NCBI RefSeq assembly: GCF_001936595.1
Contig: NZ_MLBG01000046.1
Location: 1 to 32,956 of the forward strand
DNA: 32,956 bases
Source: Desulfovibrio sp. DV
GTDB lineage: Bacteria; Desulfobacterota; Desulfovibrionia; Desulfovibrionales; Desulfovibrionaceae
Direction of reading: 5' to 3'
A program made the position numbers and the translations under genes. The notes under the pieces were generated by a model. It saw nothing but the letters and a program-made list of their open reading frames with translations, ran no database searches and was not told the DNA's origin. Shown in pieces: positions 5,685-23,531 of this stretch. Within the stretch, counting starts at the first letter, position 1. Every line of letters starts with the position of its first letter.

Positions 5685-6725
5685 TTAAACAGCACTGTGA
5701 TCCTCTTGCAAAGGTTTGACCTCTCCACGCTTCGCGCCATCCAGTCTCGCCGCAAGGTTTGACGTGCGCAAGTGCGTGTATCGCGCCAGCATTTGCAATG
5801 ACTTGTGTCCTGTAATGGCCTTGATTTCCATCACATCCAAGTCCGTATGCTCAAAGAAGCGACTGGTGGCTTCATGGCGCAGGTCATGAAAATGCAAGTT
5901 CGCCAGTCCGGCCAATTGGCAAACCTTGCCCATCTTCGATGACAGCGTGTCGGGATGGAGGTGGCCGGGAAAGACTCGCCCGGAAATATGACGAGGGAGC
6001 CCGTGGAGCACTTCGATCGCTTTTCGAGATAAAGGGACCGTCCTGCATGTCCCGTTTTTGGTGTCACGCAGCACCACCGATTTGTTGCGGAGATCGATGT
6101 CTTCCCAGGCGAGCTTGACTATCTCGCCACGTCGCATGGCTGTTTCCAAGGCGAACTTGATGATTGCGCAAAACTCCAAGTCGTCGCCAATGGCTTCAAA
6201 GAGTTTATCTTCCTCGCCAGCTTCCAGTCGTCTTTCGCGTCCCGGCGGCAATTTGGGTTTGGCGGCGAGTGGCACGGGATTGGTCAAACTCTCCATTCCC
6301 CAATCGCTCTGGGCAAAATTAAAGAGCCTGGAGAGAAGAGCCAGGTCCAAACGGATCGTATTGGCCGAAATCCCCTCTTTCTCCCGGGCGCGTCGATAGT
6401 CCGCAATGTCTTTCGACCGAATCGTTGACAGGATACGGTGGGCGATGGCACGTGATTGAAGGCAATTCGCTCGGGAAATTTCACGGCGAGGGTCTTTGAG
6501 CCTTGGCAAATATTCCTCTTTATAGCGATCCAAACATTCGCTCAGGGTGTAGCTCTCGGCCTCTTTGGTCGAGACGAACGGTCCTTTGGACATCTCGGTC
6601 TCGACTCCCTTTGCCCATTGCTCGGCCTCGGCCTTTGTATCGAAGGTCTTGCATGTTGCCGGGTAACCTCGCTTGCGAATCCTGGCTTCCCACTGGAGAT
6701 TTCCCCGCTTGCGAAATGTTGCCAT
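5685..6725 (-). CDS. Tyrosine site-specific integrase (phage/island type)
   Basis: A 346-residue tyrosine recombinase expected to catalyse integration and excision of a mobile element at the neighbouring tRNA gene. An N-terminal arm-binding-like segment (about 1-50, starting MATFRKRGN) is followed by a SAM-like core-binding domain (about 55-165) and the catalytic domain (about 175-335). Catalytic residues seen are Arg in ETAMRRGEIV, Lys in the TKNG hairpin, His and Arg in HDLRHE, His in GHKS and the nucleophile Tyr in ARYTHL. The full set is intact, so the enzyme may be active. The ATG at 6725 is preferred over 6758 because it follows an AGAGG motif and begins at the conserved family N-terminus. 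It is transcribed away from tRNA-Arg, whose 3' end is 111 bp upstream of the start. Confidence 0.93.
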   Translation of the reverse strand: MATFRKRGNLQWEARIRKRGYPATCKTFDTKAEAEQWAKGVETEMSKGPFVSTKEAESYTLSECLDRYKEEYLPRLKDPRREISRANCLQSRAIAHRILSTIRSKDIADYRRAREKEGISANTIRLDLALLSRLFNFAQSDWGMESLTNPVPLAAKPKLPPGRERRLEAGEEDKLFEAIGDDLEFCAIIKFALETAMRRGEIVKLAWEDIDLRNKSVVLRDTKNGTCRTVPLSRKAIEVLHGLPRHISGRVFPGHLHPDTLSSKMGKVCQLAGLANLHFHDLRHEATSRFFEHTDLDVMEIKAITGHKSLQMLARYTHLRTSNLAARLDGAKRGEVKPLQEDHSAV

Positions 6726-6741
6726 CGCTTTGCCTCTCTGT

Positions 6742-6768
6742 TGGAGCAAGTGGAGCAACAGTGGAGCA
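6742..6768. repeat. Triple TGGAGCA direct repeat upstream of integrase
   Basis: The 7-mer TGGAGCA occurs at 6742-6748, 6751-6757 and 6762-6768, with spacing of 9 and 11 bp, between the integrase start and the tRNA terminator. The roughly helical spacing next to an integrase and its tRNA target suggests integrase arm sites or an autoregulatory operator. This is an inference. Confidence 0.5.
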
Positions 6769-6836: not shown

Positions 6837-6913
6837 TGGTGCGCCCGGAGCGATTCGAACGCCCGACCGTCGGATTCGAAGTCCGATGCTCTATCCAGCT
6901 GAGCCACGGGCGC
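6837..6913 (-). tRNA. tRNA-Arg (anticodon TCG)
   Basis: On the minus strand, GCGCCCG (acceptor 5' arm, 6907-6913) pairs with CGGGCGC (6841-6847), followed by discriminator A and an encoded CCA. The D arm contains GCTCAGCTGGATAGAGC. The anticodon loop CTTCGAA, with a TCGGA/TCCGA stem, gives anticodon TCG, read as arginine. The T arm contains GTTCGAATC. It is 77 nt including CCA. The integrase gene next to its 3' end indicates that the gene serves as an attachment site for a mobile element. Confidence 0.97.
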
Positions 6914-16645: not shown

Positions 16646-18658
16646 CTACTTGGCCAGGGCCCGGGTGATGGCCGCCACCAGCTCGGCCGGCTCGAAAGGC
16701 TTGGTCACATACTCGTCCATGCCGGCCTCCAGCCCCTTTTCCCGGTCCGAATCCATGGCATAGGCCGTTAGCGCCACCACCGGAATGGTGGGTGCTATGC
16801 CCTGGACCTGGCCCGACCGGATGAGACGCGTAGCCTCCAGGCCGTTTAATCGCGGCATCTGAATATCCATGAGCACCAGATCGTAGGCGTCCCGGCCAAG
16901 CATGGCCAGGGCCTCGCGGCCGTCAACGGCGCTGTCCACGGTGTGCCCGAGCTTTTGCAGGGCGCGCACCGTGAAGATGCGGTTGACCGGCTCGTCCTCG
17001 GCCAAAAGGATGCGCAAGCCCTCGCCGGGCTTGGGGACGGGAGCCGCCTGGACCTGGCGGGGGGGGATCCGGGGTTTGCGCTCGGTCAGGGGCAGACTGC
17101 ATTCCAGCGTGGCGTAAAACGTGCTCCCCCGGCCGGGTTCGGAAGCAAAAGTGATGTCGCCGCCCATCATGGTGGTCAGCTTGCGGGCAATGGACAGACC
17201 CAGTCCGGCCCCGCTGTACTTTTTGGTGAGATAGTTCTCGCCAATGCCGAACGGCTCGAAAATGGAGGACGTGGCATCGGGATTGATGCCGACACCGGTA
17301 TCCTCGACCACCAGCAGCAGGCGCACCCGGGGCGCGCCGTCGCCGGTGTCCCGGTCGGCCGGCCGCTGGCCAAGCTTCTGTTCGTCCAGGCCGACACGAA
17401 CGGCAACATGGCCCTTTTTCGTGTATTTGAAGGCGTTGGACAGGAGATTGATCAGAATCTGCCTGACCCGGTTGGCATCGCCGATGACCCGGGCCGGCAG
17501 CAACGGATCGAAAACGTAGGTGAACTCAAAGGGACGCAGCAGGCTTTGGGCGGCAAAATTACGCAGCAGCGGCGTGAGTTCGTCCCTGAGGTCAAACTCC
17601 TGCTTGGCCATCTCAATGCGCCCGGACTCGACATTGGACAAGTCGAGCAGGTCGCTTACGATGTGCACGAGTGTAGCCGCCGACTGCCTGATGATGCCCA
17701 GGTACTCCTGGGTTTCGCTGTCGTTTTCCTGGTCGAGCAACAACTGGGAAATGCCCAGGATGCCGTTTAAGGGCGTGCGCAGTTCATGGCTGATGTTGGC
17801 CAGGAACTGGGTCTTGGCGGCGCTGGCCGTCTCGGCCGCCTGGCTGGAGGCCACCAGCTTCTGCTCCAGGCATTTTTGCTCGGTGATGTCGTCAAAGGCC
17901 CAGATCACACCCTCGGCCTCGTCGCAGGGGCTGATCATCCGGGCGGCCGTGCGCAACACCAGTGGGGAGCCGTCGGTGTGGCGCATGGTGTGCTCACCGA
18001 TGTGCATTCCCTTGGTGCAGAGGTCCTCATAGGCGGTTTTGGTGAAAAGGCCGTAGCTTTCGGGCGTGGAGAACAAAAACTCGATTGAGCGGCCGATCAG
18101 CGCCTCGACCGGGCGTCCGAGCAACTCGGCGCCTCGGGCGTTGACCTTCTCGAAACGGTGGTTGCGGGCCAGGGCCATGCCGATCAGCGCGTTGTCGAAA
18201 ATGGTCTCCATCTCCCGAAGCGCCCTGGCCAGGGTGAGGCGGGCCTCGATTTCACCCGACAGGATGAGGACATGGGCTTCCATCCCTCCGCCCAGGCGCC
18301 GGACCGCCCGGGTGCGCACTGCCACGGCCGATCCGTCGGCACGGCGCAGCAACTCTTCCTGGCACACCGGCCCCTGGCTGGTCGTCAGGGATTCCAGCAA
18401 CGGGTCGCGCTCCCTGACAGCCCGGTAGAGCGCCTCCCCGGCCGTGCGGCCAAGCAACTCCCCGGCCTCGTCGTAACCAAGCGCCCTGGCCCCGGTCTTG
18501 GACAGCCACTCCAGCCGGTCCGAGCCGTCGGTGCGATAGGTCAGATCACTATGGCTCTGGGCGACCTGCTCAAAGGCGCAGAAACCGGCCAACAGCGCCC
18601 GGTTGCCAAGCTCCCGGGCATTGGCCGCAGCGGCGTCCCGTTTTGTGTCGTCAGCCAT
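16646..18658 (-). CDS. Hybrid sensor histidine kinase (PAS-PAS-HisKA-HATPase-REC)
   Basis: A 670-residue soluble hybrid kinase with no membrane segment, so it probably senses a cytoplasmic cue through two PAS-like domains (about residues 25-140 and 150-270). HisKA has the phosphorylated His in ISHELRTPLNGILG. The HATPase has N box LLSNAFKYT, G1 VEDTGVGI, an F-box-like IFEPF and G2 SGAGLGLSIARKL. The C-terminal receiver has AEDEPVN, the phospho-Asp in LVLMDIQMPRLNG and Lys in YVTKPFEP. The ATG at 18658 has GGGGA five bases upstream; ATG 18670 would add four residues. No response regulator is adjacent, so output probably goes through an Hpt protein. It converges with the antitoxin gene. Confidence 0.94.
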   Translation of the reverse strand: MADDTKRDAAAANARELGNRALLAGFCAFEQVAQSHSDLTYRTDGSDRLEWLSKTGARALGYDEAGELLGRTAGEALYRAVRERDPLLESLTTSQGPVCQEELLRRADGSAVAVRTRAVRRLGGGMEAHVLILSGEIEARLTLARALREMETIFDNALIGMALARNHRFEKVNARGAELLGRPVEALIGRSIEFLFSTPESYGLFTKTAYEDLCTKGMHIGEHTMRHTDGSPLVLRTAARMISPCDEAEGVIWAFDDITEQKCLEQKLVASSQAAETASAAKTQFLANISHELRTPLNGILGISQLLLDQENDSETQEYLGIIRQSAATLVHIVSDLLDLSNVESGRIEMAKQEFDLRDELTPLLRNFAAQSLLRPFEFTYVFDPLLPARVIGDANRVRQILINLLSNAFKYTKKGHVAVRVGLDEQKLGQRPADRDTGDGAPRVRLLLVVEDTGVGINPDATSSIFEPFGIGENYLTKKYSGAGLGLSIARKLTTMMGGDITFASEPGRGSTFYATLECSLPLTERKPRIPPRQVQAAPVPKPGEGLRILLAEDEPVNRIFTVRALQKLGHTVDSAVDGREALAMLGRDAYDLVLMDIQMPRLNGLEATRLIRSGQVQGIAPTIPVVALTAYAMDSDREKGLEAGMDEYVTKPFEPAELVAAITRALAK

Positions 18659-18700
18659 GGAAGTCCCCATACCGTTTTAACTATTCGCCAGAGCACTTGA

Positions 18701-18763: not shown

Positions 18764-19111
18764 TCAGGAAGGATCGCGACGCCGGCAGAACTGGTCGCAC
18801 AAATCCACGGCCCGATCGAGCACCGCCCCACAGCCGTTGACCAGGTTGTCCACGTACAAGGCGTCCCCGGTCTTGCGGCACATGGTCAGACAGGCCGAAA
18901 GCTCGGCCGGCGGCTCGGACAATTCCTGGCGAAAACGATTGCAGATGGGATCGGATAAGCAGGCGTTGGGCGTGGGCAATGTCGAACAATATTCATGAAA
19001 ATCGGTCACGGTCATCACCGGCGGCTTGCCGCCGCCCATCCCGCCGCCCTGGCCGGCACACCCGGCCAAGGCCAACACAGCCAATACCACCGCTGTCACT
19101 CGGACGCCCAT
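18764..19111 (-). CDS. Cysteine-rich small lipoprotein
   Basis: A 115-residue exported lipoprotein. Starting at ATG 19111 (GGAG 5 bases upstream) gives MGVRVTAVVLAVLALAGCAG, a classic signal with lipobox ALAGC; the longer frame to 19204 has no start signal. After a Gly-rich linker, the mature part carries eight more Cys, in pairs such as EYC...NAC, PIC, SAC/TMC, NGC and DLC/QFC, arranged on predicted helices. That suggests four disulfides, or metal binding, in the periplasm. No known family is recognised. It lies 105 bp downstream of nothing but its own leader and is divergent from the phage-like small-gene cluster; the hybrid kinase gene follows on the same strand after about 105 bp. Confidence 0.75.
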   Translation of the reverse strand: MGVRVTAVVLAVLALAGCAGQGGGMGGGKPPVMTVTDFHEYCSTLPTPNACLSDPICNRFRQELSEPPAELSACLTMCRKTGDALYVDNLVNGCGAVLDRAVDLCDQFCRRRDPS

Positions 19112-19284
19112 AGATTCTCCATTGGTTTGAGTTGCCACTTCACCAATTCTGCCCAAGCGCTGTTCGCCTGTAAAGACGTTTGCGCTGCCACGCAGAAGTG
19201 CCAACAGATAAATTTATTTTTGACATAGACTGACTGGTCCATGTCCGCCTTCCATGGTCCTTATGGAAGCAAGGATGGTGCAAC
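19112..19284. promoter_or_regulatory. Divergent control region of the phage-like cluster
   Basis: The region contains a consensus-like -35 TTGACA near 19220 and an inverted repeat TTCCAT-N7-ATGGAA at about 19252-19270, just ahead of the first phage-like gene. The repeat could be an operator. The -10 is not clear. Confidence 0.35.
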
Positions 19285-19530
19285 ATGAACACACACTCGG
19301 CCCTGCCGGCCATGCCGGCCGATCTGCGAAATGCGGTCCTGTCCAATTACACAACCTTCAGCGAAGACGGAACATTGTGCTACGTCTCAGACAAGGTGCA
19401 TCGCAGCTGTACGCTCTGCGGCACCGTCTTCTCCGGCTCCGTCAGCTTCATGGCCCTGGGCAACGGCTATGCCTGCCCTTACTGCGGCATCAGTGCCTCC
19501 AAACCCATGCCCGAGAACTGGTTCTCATGA
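19285..19530 (+). CDS. Small zinc-ribbon protein
   Basis: An 81-residue cytoplasmic protein with two CxxC knuckles, CTLC and CPYC, about 24 residues apart in VHRSCTLCGTVFSGS and NGYACPYCGIS. Together these can hold one zinc ion as a zinc ribbon. Its first half has no recognised motif. The ATG at 19285 has AAGGATG some 8 bases upstream. Its stop overlaps the start of the next gene (ATGA), so it is translationally coupled in the four-gene small cluster. Zinc ribbons of this size are common among phage genes of unknown role. The exact function is not known. Confidence 0.7.
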   Translation: MNTHSALPAMPADLRNAVLSNYTTFSEDGTLCYVSDKVHRSCTLCGTVFSGSVSFMALGNGYACPYCGISASKPMPENWFS

Positions 19531-19754
19531 ACGACAATTCCCCCATGGCCTCGCGCAAACTCTGGGCCGCTGTCCTGGCCATCGCCGCTGTGGCGCTGAG
19601 CCGCAAATGGAGCATGGGACTCACCCCGGATGAAATCCAGGCCATCACCGATATCGCCCTGACCGCCATCGGGTCCCAGGCCGGCATCGACCTGGCCGAA
19701 AAAGCCCTGCCGCTCATCACCAAAGCCCAGATACCACCGGAGACAAAACCATGA
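19527..19754 (+). CDS. Small phage-like membrane protein, possible holin
   Basis: A 75-residue protein with an N-terminal hydrophobic segment (LWAAVLAIAAVALS), a basic turn and LTPDEIQAITDIALTAIGSQAGIDLAEKAL. This arrangement, a short membrane helix followed by an LTPDEI motif and a second weakly hydrophobic helix, resembles small holin-like proteins in prophages. It starts at the ATG in the ATGA overlap with the zinc-ribbon gene and ends in another ATGA overlap with the next gene. If it is a holin, the neighbouring endolysin is missing, so a lysis role is tentative. Confidence 0.65.
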   Translation: MNDNSPMASRKLWAAVLAIAAVALSRKWSMGLTPDEIQAITDIALTAIGSQAGIDLAEKALPLITKAQIPPETKP

Positions 19755-20017
19755 CGCCCGATGCCCTGCTGCTGCCCGCCTGGATCTCGTTCCTCGTCGC
19801 CCTGGTCCTCTTTTTTACCCGGAAATGGGTCAATGACGTGGCCCGCGCCATCGACAGTCTCCAGGAAAGGATGCGCGCCTACGAAAAAGCCCAGAACGAC
19901 TGCCGCCTGGAACTGGCCCGGGGCTACCCCACCCGCAGCGAAATGGAACGCGTGGGCGAACGCCTGGAATCCCACGCCACCCGCCTCACCATCCTCGAAG
20001 AAAATATCGCCGCCTAA
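19751..20017 (+). CDS. Small membrane protein with coiled coil (phage-like)
   Basis: An 88-residue protein with one N-terminal membrane helix (about residues 6-22, ISFLVALVLFFT) and a long heptad-patterned helix (about 28-86) ending in LTILEENIAA. It resembles the small single-helix coiled-coil proteins found near lysis or packaging genes of Mu-like and other prophages (DUF2730-like shape), but I cannot assign the family firmly. Its start overlaps the preceding stop (ATGA), indicating translational coupling. Interaction with the neighbouring holin-like protein is plausible. Confidence 0.65.
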   Translation: MTPDALLLPAWISFLVALVLFFTRKWVNDVARAIDSLQERMRAYEKAQNDCRLELARGYPTRSEMERVGERLESHATRLTILEENIAA

Positions 20018-20036
20018 CACGAAAGGAGCATACGCC

Positions 20037-20135
20037 ATGTCCCTCGACCGACTGCTCGCCCTCAATCCCCACCTGTCCCTGGCCGATATCCTCGCCCTTT
20101 GGCACTGGTCCGGCCCCTCCCGCCGGTTGCACTAG
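20037..20135 (+). CDS. Very small peptide of 32 residues
   Basis: A 32-residue reading frame, MSLDRLLALNPHLSLADILA and on to RRLH, with an excellent Shine-Dalgarno AAAGGAG nine bases before the ATG. It lies 19 bp after the coiled-coil membrane protein in the same direction, so it is probably the last gene of the cluster. It is a Leu-rich amphipathic helix with a basic C-terminus. The palindrome field begins immediately after the stop. No known family. Confidence 0.55.
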   Translation: MSLDRLLALNPHLSLADILALWHWSGPSRRLH

Positions 20136-20141
20136 GCACCG

Positions 20142-20229
20142 GCAGGGCGCTGCCCTGCACCCGCCGGGACGCTGTCCCGGACCCTGCCAGGGCGTTGCCC
20201 TGGACCCACCGGGGGGGTCACCCCCCCGG
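20142..20229. repeat. Array of four tandem hairpins, 22-23 bp period
   Basis: Hairpins at 20142-20158 (GCAGGGC/GCCCTGC), 20164-20180 (CCGGGAC/GTCCCGG), 20187-20203 (CCAGGGC/GCCCTGG) and 20209-20229 (CCGGGGGGG/CCCCCCCGG) each have a perfect 7-9 bp stem and a 3-base loop. Starts are 22, 23 and 22 bp apart, so they form one imperfect tandem array. Stem sequences vary while pairing is kept, which points to selection for structure. Confidence 0.9.
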
Positions 20230-20291
20230 ACCCCCGGACGGGGTGGGCGGGTGGAGGTGGCGACGGTGGCGGGAGTGCGGGAAGATGGGGT

Positions 20292-20350
20292 CTGGATTTC
20301 AGGGCTGGCCCCGACGCGGAAGCCGCCTCGGGGCCAGCCCTGAAATCCAG
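20292..20350. repeat. Large perfect inverted repeat (23-bp arms)
   Basis: The left arm 20292-20314 (begins CTGGATTTCAGG) and right arm 20328-20350 (ends CCTGAAATCCAG) are perfectly complementary over 23 bp around a 13-base centre. No T-run follows, so it is not an ordinary terminator. Confidence 0.95.
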
Positions 20351-20437
20351 GCCCCAACTCGCCAGCGGCCCGGCCGCATTTTTGAGTCGTGGAGTGTGGA
20401 AAGCGCACATTTTTGGAGAGGTTTTTACGGGCGAACC

Positions 20438-20511
20438 GGTTGGTTGCAATTTCGGCCGGCGTGCTCCCCGCGCTTCGCGGGGAGTGTCGCCGGCCGAAAT
20501 TGCAACCAACC
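20438..20511. repeat. Large nested inverted repeat (24-bp arms plus inner hairpin)
   Basis: The left arm 20438-20461 (GGTTGGTTGCAATTTC...) and right arm 20488-20511 (...GAAATTGCAACCAACC) match perfectly over 24 bp. Inside is a second hairpin, CTCCCCGCG (20464-20472), CTT, CGCGGGGAG (20476-20484), so a single strand could fold into a 74-nt, almost fully paired rod. Confidence 0.95.
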
Positions 20512-20615
20512 ATGCGGCGCAGCCGCCAGCGCTCCCGCGCCTCATGGTCTTCCCGCCCTGCCGCGTCCGCATTGGCTCCTTATGCCGCCTGGGCCATGCG
20601 CTCCCATTCAGGGGT

Positions 20616-20634
20616 CCGGGGGGTGACCCCCCGG
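20616..20634. repeat. Inverted copy of the G/C-run hairpin
   Basis: CCGGGGGG-TGA-CCCCCCGG. With its flanks it is close to the reverse complement of the last array unit and its flanks at about 20206-20237 (loop TCA there, TGA here). The two bracket the palindrome field as a ~400-bp inverted pair. Confidence 0.8.
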
Positions 20635-20795
20635 CCGCCGGAGGCTTCTTCCGCTTCCTCCCCGCCTCACCTTCTCCATCTCCATATCCACCTCTCCCTC
20701 TCTCCACTTCCCCCCACCGCACCGCTCGTCCCGTTGCGCTCTCCACACATTCCCATCCGTGCTTTTTCTCACCCCACAACAGGAAGGATTGACTG

Positions 20796-21356
20796 ATGCA
20801 TGAGCAAGCCAGGCGTTTGACGGATCGGCAGCAGCGGTTTGTCGAGGAATATCTGATGGACTGCAATGCGGCGGCAGCGGCGGTGCGGGCCGGGTACAGC
20901 GAGAAGAGCGCCGGCAGCACCGGGGCGCGGCTTCGGGGGCTGGACCGGGTGCGCGAGGCGATTGCGGCGGCCATGGCCCAGCGCAGCCAGCGGGTGGGGA
21001 TTACCCAGGACCGGGTGGTGTTGGAGCTGGCCCGTCTGGCCTTTGCCGATATGCGGGATTTTGTGGCCTGGGGCGGCGAGGGCGGGCTGCGGTTGCGGCC
21101 GTCGGAGGCGTTGACTCCGGATCAGGCGGCCTGTGTGTCGGAGATTGTGGAGACTCCGGGCAAGGGGGTGCGGGTGAAGCTTTATGGCAAGACCCAGGCG
21201 TTGGCGGCCTTGTCCCGGCATTTGGGGGACAGGGGCCGGGGAGAGGAGGACGGCGGCGGGGGGGGCGGGGCGCAGCCGGTGACGGTGGTGACGTGTATGC
21301 CGTTTCCTGAGCCGCTGCGGGAGGATGAGCAGATGGCATTGCCGTCGGACGCTTGA
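20796..21356 (+). CDS. Phage terminase small subunit
   Basis: A 186-residue DNA-recognition subunit of a phage packaging motor (Terminase_2 family). The N-terminal signature is clear: LTDRQQRFVEEYLMDCNAAAAAVRAGYSEKSA at about residues 8-39, an HTH-containing module, followed by a helical region and a segment (EIVETPGKGVRVKLYGKTQALAALSRHLG) also typical of the family. The C-terminal part has a Gly-rich stretch. AGGA lies about 9 bases before the ATG at 20796. Codon use is strongly G-ending, unlike the C-ending host genes. The large subunit lies about 420 bp downstream, with an opposite-strand gene between them. Confidence 0.93.
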   Translation: MHEQARRLTDRQQRFVEEYLMDCNAAAAAVRAGYSEKSAGSTGARLRGLDRVREAIAAAMAQRSQRVGITQDRVVLELARLAFADMRDFVAWGGEGGLRLRPSEALTPDQAACVSEIVETPGKGVRVKLYGKTQALAALSRHLGDRGRGEEDGGGGGGAQPVTVVTCMPFPEPLREDEQMALPSDA

Positions 21357-21363
21357 GGCGGGG

Positions 21364-21657
21364 TCACATCCGGGCGGTGGCGGGGCGGGCCTTGTCGGCC
21401 TTGGCGGCTTGGCGGCACTGGAGGCGCAGGCTTTCGAAGGCGTCATCAGGGATGGCGGTTTCGGGGCAGGCAGCGCGCAGGCGGGCGGCGGCCATGCGGC
21501 AGTCGGTGACGGCGTCGGGGGCCGGGGCGTTTTGGCGCTGCAGCAGCCGGGAGTAGCTGTTGGGCGAGGGCCGGGACAGCGAGAGCGTGGACCCGGCGAC
21601 GGCCATAATCAGGCTGGCGGCAAGGATGCAGCAGTATTTGAGCAATCTGGGCCGCAT
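21364..21657 (-). CDS. Small exported protein, opposite strand between terminase genes
   Basis: A 97-residue protein with a basic N-terminus and a hydrophobic core (CCILAASLIMAVAGS) that fits a signal peptide with cleavage near Ala-Gly-Ser, or a membrane anchor. The mature part has two Cys-containing stretches (TDCRMAAARLRAAC and LRLQC) and ends Arg/Ala-rich. AAGGAGG lies 5 bases before the ATG at 21657, a strong signal for a real gene despite its orientation. Its stop is 7 bp from the small-subunit stop (convergent), and its start is divergent from the large-subunit gene. No family recognised. The position is like a moron gene or a small lysis-accessory (Rz1-like) gene, but neither can be shown. 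Confidence 0.7.
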   Translation of the reverse strand: MRPRLLKYCCILAASLIMAVAGSTLSLSRPSPNSYSRLLQRQNAPAPDAVTDCRMAAARLRAACPETAIPDDAFESLRLQCRQAAKADKARPATARM

Positions 21658-21698
21658 GGCAGCCTCCTTGGGATCGGCGGTATCGACATGGGGAGCGT

Positions 21699-21714
21699 TG
21701 CCTGTTTCATGCCA
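21699..21714 (-). promoter_or_regulatory. Possible sigma-54 promoter of the small exported protein
   Basis: On the minus strand, TGGCATGAAACAGGCA has GG and GC elements exactly 10 bp apart, about 42 bp upstream of the start. The -12 element lacks the usual TT, so the call is weak. Confidence 0.25.
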
Positions 21715-21774
21715 CAATAAAGTCACGCTATTTTAGAAGGTTGCAAAAACAGACAAAACAGGGAGGCCCTGTTG

Positions 21775-23232
21775 GTGCAGCAAATTGACCATATTTCGGC
21801 ACAACCAGGGGGAGCCGGCCGCCGCATTGTCTTGCCGTACCGGCCCCAGCCGCTCCAGGCGCGGCTCCATGCCTGCCGGGCCAATGAGATCTTGTTTGGC
21901 GGGGCGGCCGGGCCGGGCAAGAGCCATGCCTTGCGGTTTGAGGCGTTGGTGATGTGTCTGCGGGTGCCGGGGCTGCGGGCCTATCTGTTTCGGCGGACCA
22001 TGCCGGAGTTGGAGCGCAACCATATTCTTCCGGCCTTGGACCAATTTCCCAAGGTGTTGGGGACGTATCGGGACGCAAAGCAGCGTTTTGAATTTCTCAA
22101 TGGTTCCATGCTCAACTTTTGCGGCTGCCAGCGCGAAAAAGATGTGTTCCGGTTTCAGGGGGCGGAGCTGCATATGCTTTTTATCGACGAGCTGACCAGT
22201 TTTACGGAGTTTCAGTACGACTATCTGCGGGGGCGGTTGCGCTGCGCCATCGAGGTGCCGGCGGCGCTGCGGCACAAGGTGCCGGGGGTGGTGTGCGCGT
22301 CCAATCCGGGCGGGGTGGGGCATGGCTTTGCCAAGGCCCGGTTTGTGGATTTCGCCCCGGCCGGGGAGTGCCGCCGGGCGCCTGTGGCCGAGGGCGGGAT
22401 GCTGCGCTGCTATATTCCGGGCAGGCTGGCCGACAACCGCCTCCTGATGGAGCGCGATCCGGGCTATATCGCCCGGCTGATGGCCCTGCCCGAGCCGTAT
22501 CGCACGGCCTATCTGGAGGGCGACTGGGATGTGTTCATGGGCCAGGCGTTTGGCTTTTCGCGCCGGCTGCATGTGGTCAAGCCCCGGCCTGTGCCGGAGG
22601 ATGCGCCGTTGTTCATGACGTTTGACTGGGGCTATGGCGCGCCGTTTTCGGTTGGCTGGTGGTGGGTGGACGCCGATGGGCGGCTTTTCCGGTTTGCCGA
22701 GTGGTACGGGTCCAATGGGTCGCCCAACCAGGGGTTGCGGCTGACGGATTCCCAGATTGCGGCCGGGATTGTGGAGCGCGAGGCCCGGTTGGGCCTGGCC
22801 GGTCGGCGGCTGACCCGGCTGTGCGGGCCGGACTGTTTTGCCAAAAAGCCGGATTACCGGGGCGGCGGCCAGGGGCCGAGCACGGCCGAGGTGTTTGCCG
22901 GGGCCGGGGTGTACCTGTCTCCGGGCGATCCGTCGCGAACGGCCAAGATCCGGCAGTTTCACGAGCGGTTGCGCCCGCGTGAGGATGGGCCGCCCATGCT
23001 GCAGGTCTATGACACCTGCGAGGATTTCATCCGCACCATTGCGCTGTTGGCCACGGACCGGCGCAATGTCGAGGACATCGACACCACCGGCGAGGACCAC
23101 GTCTATGACGAGGCCTGCCATGTCTGCATGGCCCGGCCTCTGGCTCCGGGCATGGTGAAAACGGCCGAAAAGCCGGCGGCGCGGCTTATTGACGCGGTGC
23201 TGGCCGAGGCCCCAACCGAGGAGGATTTCTGA
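21775..23232 (+). CDS. Phage terminase large subunit
   Basis: A 485-residue packaging motor ATPase/nuclease. Walker A is FGGAAGPGKSHALR near residue 42, an adenine/arginine segment FRRTMPELERN follows, Walker B is LHMLFIDELTSF, and a coupling-like CASNPGG motif lies near 180. The C-terminal RNase H-like nuclease starts with MTFDWGYGAPFS (first catalytic Asp) and ends with the Asp in DHVYDEACH. Both activities look intact. Translation starts at GTG 21775, 8 bases after GGGAGG; TTG 21772 is possible. The product ends by overlapping the next gene (TGATG). No portal or capsid gene follows, which is unusual for a terminase. Confidence 0.93.
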   Translation: MQQIDHISAQPGGAGRRIVLPYRPQPLQARLHACRANEILFGGAAGPGKSHALRFEALVMCLRVPGLRAYLFRRTMPELERNHILPALDQFPKVLGTYRDAKQRFEFLNGSMLNFCGCQREKDVFRFQGAELHMLFIDELTSFTEFQYDYLRGRLRCAIEVPAALRHKVPGVVCASNPGGVGHGFAKARFVDFAPAGECRRAPVAEGGMLRCYIPGRLADNRLLMERDPGYIARLMALPEPYRTAYLEGDWDVFMGQAFGFSRRLHVVKPRPVPEDAPLFMTFDWGYGAPFSVGWWWVDADGRLFRFAEWYGSNGSPNQGLRLTDSQIAAGIVEREARLGLAGRRLTRLCGPDCFAKKPDYRGGGQGPSTAEVFAGAGVYLSPGDPSRTAKIRQFHERLRPREDGPPMLQVYDTCEDFIRTIALLATDRRNVEDIDTTGEDHVYDEACHVCMARPLAPGMVKTAEKPAARLIDAVLAEAPTEEDF

Positions 23233-23531
23233 TGCCGGGACAGGCGGCTGACTGGCGGTGGCTGGAGATGCTGGTTCCTCTGGGTGCGGCCCTGGTTTTT
23301 TTGCTGGTGGGCTGGCGGCTTGGCCGGGAGAGTGTTGGCCGGGCCATGTTCGACTACCGGGTGTTGCCCCCGGTCCGGGAGGCGGCCCCGGTCCCGGAGG
23401 AGTCCGATCCCTGGAGCGAGGCGTCCATCGGGGCCACGGCCCTGGAGCGGCGGCCCCGGCCGGTGGATATTTTTGAGACACTGCGGCCGGCCTGCCGGGA
23501 AAATGGCGGCGACAGGGACGGCTTTGCTTAA
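23232..23531 (+). CDS. Small membrane protein coupled to terminase
   Basis: A 99-residue protein with one membrane helix (LEMLVPLGAALVFLLVGWRL, about residues 11-30) and a Pro/Glu/Arg-rich cytoplasmic tail without recognised motifs. Its ATG overlaps the terminase large-subunit stop by one base, so it is translationally coupled and belongs to the phage-like block. It is not a portal protein (far too short). It is the last gene of the block; the control region of the ZraP-like gene follows at once. Function unknown. Confidence 0.65.
   Translation: MPGQAADWRWLEMLVPLGAALVFLLVGWRLGRESVGRAMFDYRVLPPVREAAPVPEESDPWSEASIGATALERRPRPVDIFETLRPACRENGGDRDGFA

Follow-up and report, generated by a model that had tools for sequence, protein, structure and literature searches.

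The 32,956-nucleotide window analyzed here, contig C46 of the 4.85-Mb assembly of Desulfovibrio sp. DV (G000, whose genus was taken as Solidesulfovibrio), carries an intact pair of phage-type small and large terminase genes (TerS and TerL) with no portal, capsid or integrase gene adjoining them. A reading made from the DNA letters alone (the sequence-only reading) had called this an orphan packaging module, and all of the elements that it named were found in place; the module is no orphan, since it recurs in 14/14 Solidesulfovibrio genomes, each with a separate locus of head genes. We consider it probable that these loci, at two (perhaps three) chromosomal sites, form a phage packaging system domesticated by the host and inherited vertically, most likely as a gene transfer agent (GTA). 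The comparison established the identity and phage ancestry of the genes, their synteny, host-congruent inheritance and purifying selection, and an upstream element shared by both loci. On the best reading of these sequences, the GTA would be old and host controlled, its motor and particle genes having become separate, co-regulated loci. The terminase locus contains the following features, where ORF stands for open reading frame and aa for amino acids.

19222 to 19259, plus strand: 38-bp element in common with the head locus on contig C113 (positions 808 to 845), a probable promoter or regulatory site
19285 to 19530, plus strand: zn81, a small CxxC..CxxC protein with a relative just after TerL in phage contig L009 and in a prophage of genome G011
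19527 to 19754, plus strand: hol74, a holin-like small membrane protein (weak match to phrog_4712 holin, E = 0.058)
19751 to 20017, plus strand: p88, with an N-terminal membrane segment and a coiled coil (phrog_7885, unknown function, 6.3e-5)
20037 to 20135, plus strand: p32, a 32-aa ORF, 32 aa long in 16/16 genomes where it was extracted
20138 to 20790, no strand: inverted-repeat field between p32 and TerS
20796 to 21356, plus strand: TerS, small terminase (Pfam Terminase_2, 1e-31), N-terminal DNA-binding domain retained
21364 to 21726, minus strand: antisense ORF with a signal-like N terminus (alternative start at 21657)
21772 to 23232, plus strand: TerL, large terminase (phrog_979, 1.1e-38), ATPase and nuclease motifs intact
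23232 to 23531, plus strand: mem99, a 99-aa ORF with a membrane-like N terminus, whose phage relatives sit between TerL and portal

In order to evaluate the conservation of this locus, we compared genomes of the family, several of which are metagenome-assembled genomes (MAGs), using gene calls from a simple script; the genus set includes S. aerotolerans DSM 16695 (G001), S. alcoholivorans DSM 5433 (G002) and S. magneticus Maddingley (G007). TerL was present in all 14 Solidesulfovibrio genomes, at 76 to 92% identity over the 12 other full-length copies. Matches to it occurred in 26 of the 288 family genomes, namely the 14 of the genus, three of a second genus, g17 (70 to 71% identity), and nine others, the best of which reached 52%. 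The gene context around TerL was the same in the genus and in g17 wherever contigs extended. In a tblastn check of the 13 other genus loci and the three g17 loci, TerS, zn81, p32 and mem99 were each found at 12/13 and 3/3, respectively; p88 was found at 12/13 and hol74 at 10/13 genus loci, and neither at any g17 locus. The left flank (the lipoprotein gene lp115) and the right flank (zraP) were likewise kept at 12/13 and 3/3 loci, and the TPR gene beside the terminase locus at 12/13 and 2/3. The left part of the locus lies on a separate contig, C22, in G008, and the contig of G010 stops short of zraP. The module and its context recur in 14/14 genus and three g17 genomes; the antisense ORF between TerS and TerL was detected in 9/14 genus genomes, our own included, and at 0/3 g17 loci. 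In G003 and G006, an additional 2 to 3 kb separates TerS from the antisense ORF. In G048, a g17 genome, the positions of hol74 and p88 are occupied by other small ORFs of 104 and 79 aa (L083:9020-9580, minus strand).

The lack of portal and capsid genes holds for the locus but not for the genome, as contig C113 (L123) carries both. With the L009 portal and capsid as queries, we found the portal in 14/14 and the capsid in 13/14 genus genomes at a second syntenic locus; the one genome lacking a capsid match is G010, a MAG of 69% completeness in which the contig breaks off within the portal. A Solidesulfovibrio capsid used as the query matched 17/288 family genomes (13 of the genus, the three of g17, and G043). 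The head locus adjoins the same host gene in 14/14 genus genomes, and this order was also observed in G047 and G048; contig ends truncate the locus in G008, G010 and G046, and in G012 it is spread over two contigs. On C113, genes for a portal (3e-25), an FmdB-like zinc protein, a scaffold-like protein, a capsid (3.5e-26), an SU10-like adaptor (1.5e-17) and a head closure protein (9e-22) are followed by those for a virion protein, a weakly F5/8-type-C-like protein, a transglutaminase-like protein and p639, which has 639 aa and belongs to a phage protein family of unknown function. No terminase was seen on this contig. Comparison of the capsid sequence with the PDB gave chance-level matches only, and a structure prediction for the L009 capsid (mean pLDDT 33) was unusable.

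Alignment of upstream regions revealed the same 38-bp element ahead of zn81 and ahead of the gene that opens the head locus. With up to three mismatches allowed, the element was found at both loci in 13/13 genus genomes searched (0 or 1 mismatch there), and the reversed control gave 0 matches in 16/16 genomes. G010, which was outside that search, has both sites in its two loci. A third site was present in G003 and G006, a single one in each of G046 and G047, at the terminase locus, and none at ≤3 mismatches in G048. A matrix built from the terminase sites ranked the head-locus site first in 13/13 genomes, and the reverse matrix did likewise. In 2.03 Mb of scanned sequence, a set that includes overlapping loci and the matrix training sites, all sites above 8 bits lay at the two loci or before a gene that we presume, by resemblance, to be lysozyme-like. 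The best score was 5.9 in the phage loci and 0.4 in the G011 prophage, compared to a training-site minimum of 42, and IMG/VR contained no exact match to a related pattern. The element may therefore be acted on by a common activator or sigma factor.

The phage ancestry of the system is apparent from contiguous relatives. The IMG/VR phage contig L009 has the order TerS-TerL-...-mem-zinc protein-portal-FmdB-like-scaffold-like-capsid-...-connector. Genome G011 contains both split loci plus a contiguous prophage of the same lineage (at approximately 693 to 745 kb) that encodes RecT and a phage lysozyme as well as a PD-(D/E)XK nuclease and a 2113-aa protein. According to these orders, the split separates the mem gene from the zinc gene that precedes the portal. 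The sequence-only reading had equated continuity with portal and capsid genes in relatives, together with uniqueness of this copy, with a simple prophage remnant; continuity was indeed found in the phage contig and the prophage, but this copy is not unique. Wherever both loci were mapped, they lay apart and did not form a contiguous phage genome. When on one contig, TerL and capsid are 8.5 kb (G048), 88 kb (G047), 263 kb (G003), 427 kb (G011) and 620 kb (G004) apart; in G006 the distance is 609 kb if the contig is circular and 4.6 Mb if it is linear. We rejected the possibility that the split is an assembly artifact, because the loci lie 88 to 620 kb apart on a single contig in G003, G004, G011 and G047. 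Since TerL and capsid are at least 88 kb apart in 5/6 genomes having both on one contig, a particle of ordinary size would probably be unable to carry the whole gene set in those genomes. In G048, the halves are only ∼3.5 kb apart with just two host genes (zraP and TPR) between them, which makes this genome a candidate intermediate for how the loci separate. In genus g14 (L161, L162, L088; G043:C40), ∼10 kb of opposite-strand ORFs separate a related TerL from mem, zinc, portal and capsid genes, an arrangement that may represent either another split or cargo.

We then evaluated whether the loci were inherited with the host by correlating protein distances with those of host FliF (91 pairs among 14 genomes). 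The correlation was 0.909 for TerL, 0.957 for portal, 0.942 for capsid, 0.944 for p639, 0.840 for TerS and 0.926 for p152, a 152-aa virion protein (L123:7940-8395); the host references FliG and TPR gave 0.967 and 0.960. In trees, all made with FastTree, of the 11 splits in the FliF+FliG tree, those recovered numbered 7 for TerL, 7 for portal, 6 for capsid, 8 for p639, 8 for TerS and 5 for p152, compared to 8 for host TPR, and 0/2000 label shuffles reached any observed count. Ratios of nonsynonymous to synonymous substitution rates (dN/dS), computed over the available pairs out of eight, were 0.09 to 0.20 for TerL (8 pairs), 0.12 to 0.28 for portal (6 pairs), 0.02 to 0.15 for capsid (7 pairs) and 0.10 to 0.21 for p639, with host FliF at 0.07 to 0.14. 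Values were 0.20 to 0.50 for TerS, 0.32 to 1.04 for mem99 and 0.21 to 0.59 for zn96; those for hol74 (0.72 to 1.54) were discarded, as the extraction took extended frames of up to 589 aa. The constraint on motor, portal and capsid is thus close to that on FliF; it is looser on TerS and the small proteins. As judged from these sequences, TerL, portal, capsid and p639 follow the host, by vertical inheritance under purifying selection. For p152, phage copies nest among host copies, and this protein was therefore not counted toward vertical descent.

The terminase proteins themselves appear sound. In an alignment of 23 TerL sequences (16 from the two carrier genera), 7/9 Walker A residues (43 to 51), D139/E140, D285, D354 and D446 were invariant, in agreement with the earlier claim that the Walker A, Walker B and nuclease Asp residues are kept; we take these residues to be catalytic. 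Comparison of the TerL sequence with the PDB gave chance-level matches only. Residues 2 to 56 of TerS matched chain 2cmp of a small terminase (4.1e-7), which we take to be its DNA-binding domain, and the N terminus also matched 3zqp (3.6e-9). The region matching 2cmp is kept in 16 aligned orthologs, and TerS, as extracted, is 179 to 200 aa long in 15/16 genomes and 246 aa in one. G-ending codons had been proposed to mark the terminase genes as foreign. This did not hold for TerL, whose G3/(G3+C3) is 0.56 to 0.60 only in G000, G009 and G001, 0.34 to 0.41 in the other eight genomes tabulated and 0.43 to 0.44 in three phages. In the window, the shift toward G-ending codons covers TerS, TerL and mem99 (20796 to 23531), and TerS is also shifted in G003 and G007.

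Further features of the window concern the surroundings of the module. The stops and starts of zn81, hol74 and p88 overlap (19285 to 20017). Within the inverted-repeat field, the arms are 92% complementary at 20283 to 20359 and are perfect 24-nt arms at 20438 to 20511; none of the field fragments tested was found in other genome sequence examined. A scan of the ORFs in the terminase module and in the head loci of G000 and G011 recognized no integration or replication genes; the mapping in the remaining genomes was confined to relatives of terminase-module and head-locus genes. The earlier statement that an integrase is lacking is accurate for the module but not for the window, which has a tyrosine-recombinase ORF at 5685 to 6758 (minus strand) beside a tRNA-Arg gene at 6837 to 6913 (minus strand), ∼12.5 kb from the module. 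Recombinase and tRNA gene constitute an island-type integration signature. The lipoprotein gene lp115 (18764 to 19111, minus strand) is divergent from zn81 across the 38-bp element and is kept in every syntenic locus that reaches that far, often with a hybrid histidine kinase adjoining. One neighboring feature is listed together with it.

16646 to 18670, minus strand: hybrid histidine kinase/lp115 neighborhood

The lipoprotein and the kinase are candidates for an extra part or a regulator of the system.

In the mechanism that we propose, the locus in the window would make the TerS/TerL motor and small, possibly holin-like proteins, and the locus on C113 would make the portal, scaffold-like protein, capsid, adaptor, head closure and further virion proteins. 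The 38-bp element before both loci would switch them on together, TerS and TerL would cut chromosomal DNA and fill the heads, and the particles may be released by the product of the lysozyme-like gene, at a third site. From the sequence comparisons we infer co-expression of the loci, particle formation, packaging of host DNA and transfer to other cells; the data suggest that the cells may make particles that package their own DNA. Consistent with a GTA, phage-derived packaging and capsid genes are kept in the host chromosome and are inherited vertically with the host, as judged from synteny, distances and splits, with the exception of p152.

The third locus is a lead only. In G003 and G006, the extra element site immediately precedes the lysozyme-like gene, which encodes a 227-aa protein with relatives in 12/14 genus and 3/3 g17 genomes. 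This protein had no match in Pfam, PHROG or NCBIfam and no PDB match by sequence. Upstream of the gene, nine genomes have TTGAC-N14-RTGKACT instead, which resembles the right half of the element.

Several observations weigh against the GTA reading. The full element precedes the lysozyme-like gene only in G003 and G006; the gene is absent from G007 and G008 (none was found in G043 either), is interrupted in G006 and carries stop codons in G001 and in one of the G012 copies; its relative in G010, like the second G012 copy, stands in a different, prophage-like context. Of eight genomes tested, six had no match to the L009 phage-type lysozyme; the matches in the other two were the G011 prophage and a weak hit (29%) in G004. 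For the 2113-aa prophage protein, 7/8 genomes had no match, and lysis or DNA delivery may therefore be incomplete. In two incomplete MAGs, TerL (G008) is split over two overlapping frames and the portal (G010) lies in two frames. The L009 and G011-prophage copies of p152 nest among host copies, which suggests exchange between phages and the domesticated locus. Finally, TerS retains its N-terminal DNA-binding domain, and loss of this domain is a commonly reported trait of GTAs, although not part of their definition: in excerpts of PMC11841831 and PMC6854486, GTA small terminases are reported to lack it. As to the interruption of the lysozyme-like gene in G006 (L231/L245, G006:C2:5096146-5098278), it consists of ∼1.4 kb holding a 451-aa opposite-strand ORF, presumably transposase-like.

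Of the four options offered by the sequence-only reading, part of a dispersed GTA is the one that fits, and a domesticated DNA-handling system is compatible with the evidence. Among rival explanations, capsid and motor might have been domesticated for a use other than transfer, such as altruistic lysis, DNA disposal or a bacteriocin-like particle. Anatomy, inheritance and selection would then be the same, and the retained TerS domain and the uncertain delivery and lysis genes would be accounted for; the joint selection on TerL, portal and capsid points instead to DNA packaging into heads, and we regard such a use as rather unlikely. A recent prophage remnant, with head genes lost here and a decaying terminase pair, would explain a module that has no head or lysogeny genes at this place when phage relatives have them beside TerL. 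It is contradicted by the conservation of module and context in 14/14 genus genomes and a second genus, by the low dN/dS and by the cognate head locus elsewhere, and is very improbable. The same low standing is given to a satellite or capsid pirate, whose terminase pair would redirect helper-phage capsids. It would predict a locus with packaging genes and no head genes, as seen here, but in the same genomes there is a related head locus preceded by the same element, no integrase lies in the module and its chromosomal position is fixed across species, so that it does not resemble a mobile island devoid of its own capsid genes. We give almost no credence to prophage halves parted by rearrangement and drift with no present function. 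Rearrangement did occur, as seen from the G048 halves ∼3.5 kb apart, and parts such as the lysozyme-like gene decay, but in comparisons between species the motor and capsid genes have dN/dS values far below 1, and the shared element is kept at both loci and was not found in phages.

The preferred reading, a GTA at separate loci, can be compared with known systems. The closest relatives, phage L009 and the G011 prophage, have related TerS, TerL, mem, zinc proteins, portal, FmdB-like protein, capsid and connector, but they are contiguous and neither has the 38-bp element. GTAs are hard to recognize, as they resemble broken prophages, and according to excerpts of a prophage survey that included D. 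magneticus RS-1, degenerate elements may be GTA-related (PMC6006170). The accessible portions of PMC12946183, PMC9662315 and PMC11434368 describe no such Solidesulfovibrio system, and we found no title on a GTA in Solidesulfovibrio in the openly licensed literature, a scope that excludes subscription papers and preprints. Within the sulfate reducers named Desulfovibrio, D. desulfuricans ATCC 27774 has the Dd1 GTA, for which a putative island from Ddes_0703 onward is given in an excerpt of PMC5701242. Its predicted TerS (Ddes_0720) is 125 aa long and immediately upstream of TerL (excerpt of PMC6854486), whereas in our window the antisense ORF lies between the two genes; as judged from its description, Dd1 may also differ from the present system in its capsid, which here matches 17/288 family genomes, 16 of them in the two carrier genera. 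As in RcGTA and other GTAs, a phage-derived terminase and structural genes occupy several loci (PMC11841831) and are inherited vertically (PMC9662315), to the extent covered by the available parts of these papers. In contrast to RcGTA, compared by description and not by sequence, the motor here is apart from portal and capsid, and TerS is ∼180 to 200 aa long in most genomes, with a DNA-binding domain, versus 107 aa without one (excerpt of PMC6854486). More tentatively, Solidesulfovibrio and the second genus might harbor an independent, undescribed GTA lineage in which motor and particle form separate regulons sharing a promoter element, and in which a TerS with a DNA-binding domain starts packaging at preferred chromosomal sites, making transfer directed rather than near-random. 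The retained domain would offer a test of whether near-random packaging depends on its loss. A lone terminase has led to a full GTA candidate in an environmental sulfate-reducer genus. That the split extends across the genus, with a shared element that was not found in phages, argues strongly, on comparative grounds, for a host having taken control of a phage motor and capsid. Overall, the system appears GTA-like in anatomy and inheritance and differs from known GTAs in the motor/particle split and in its TerS.

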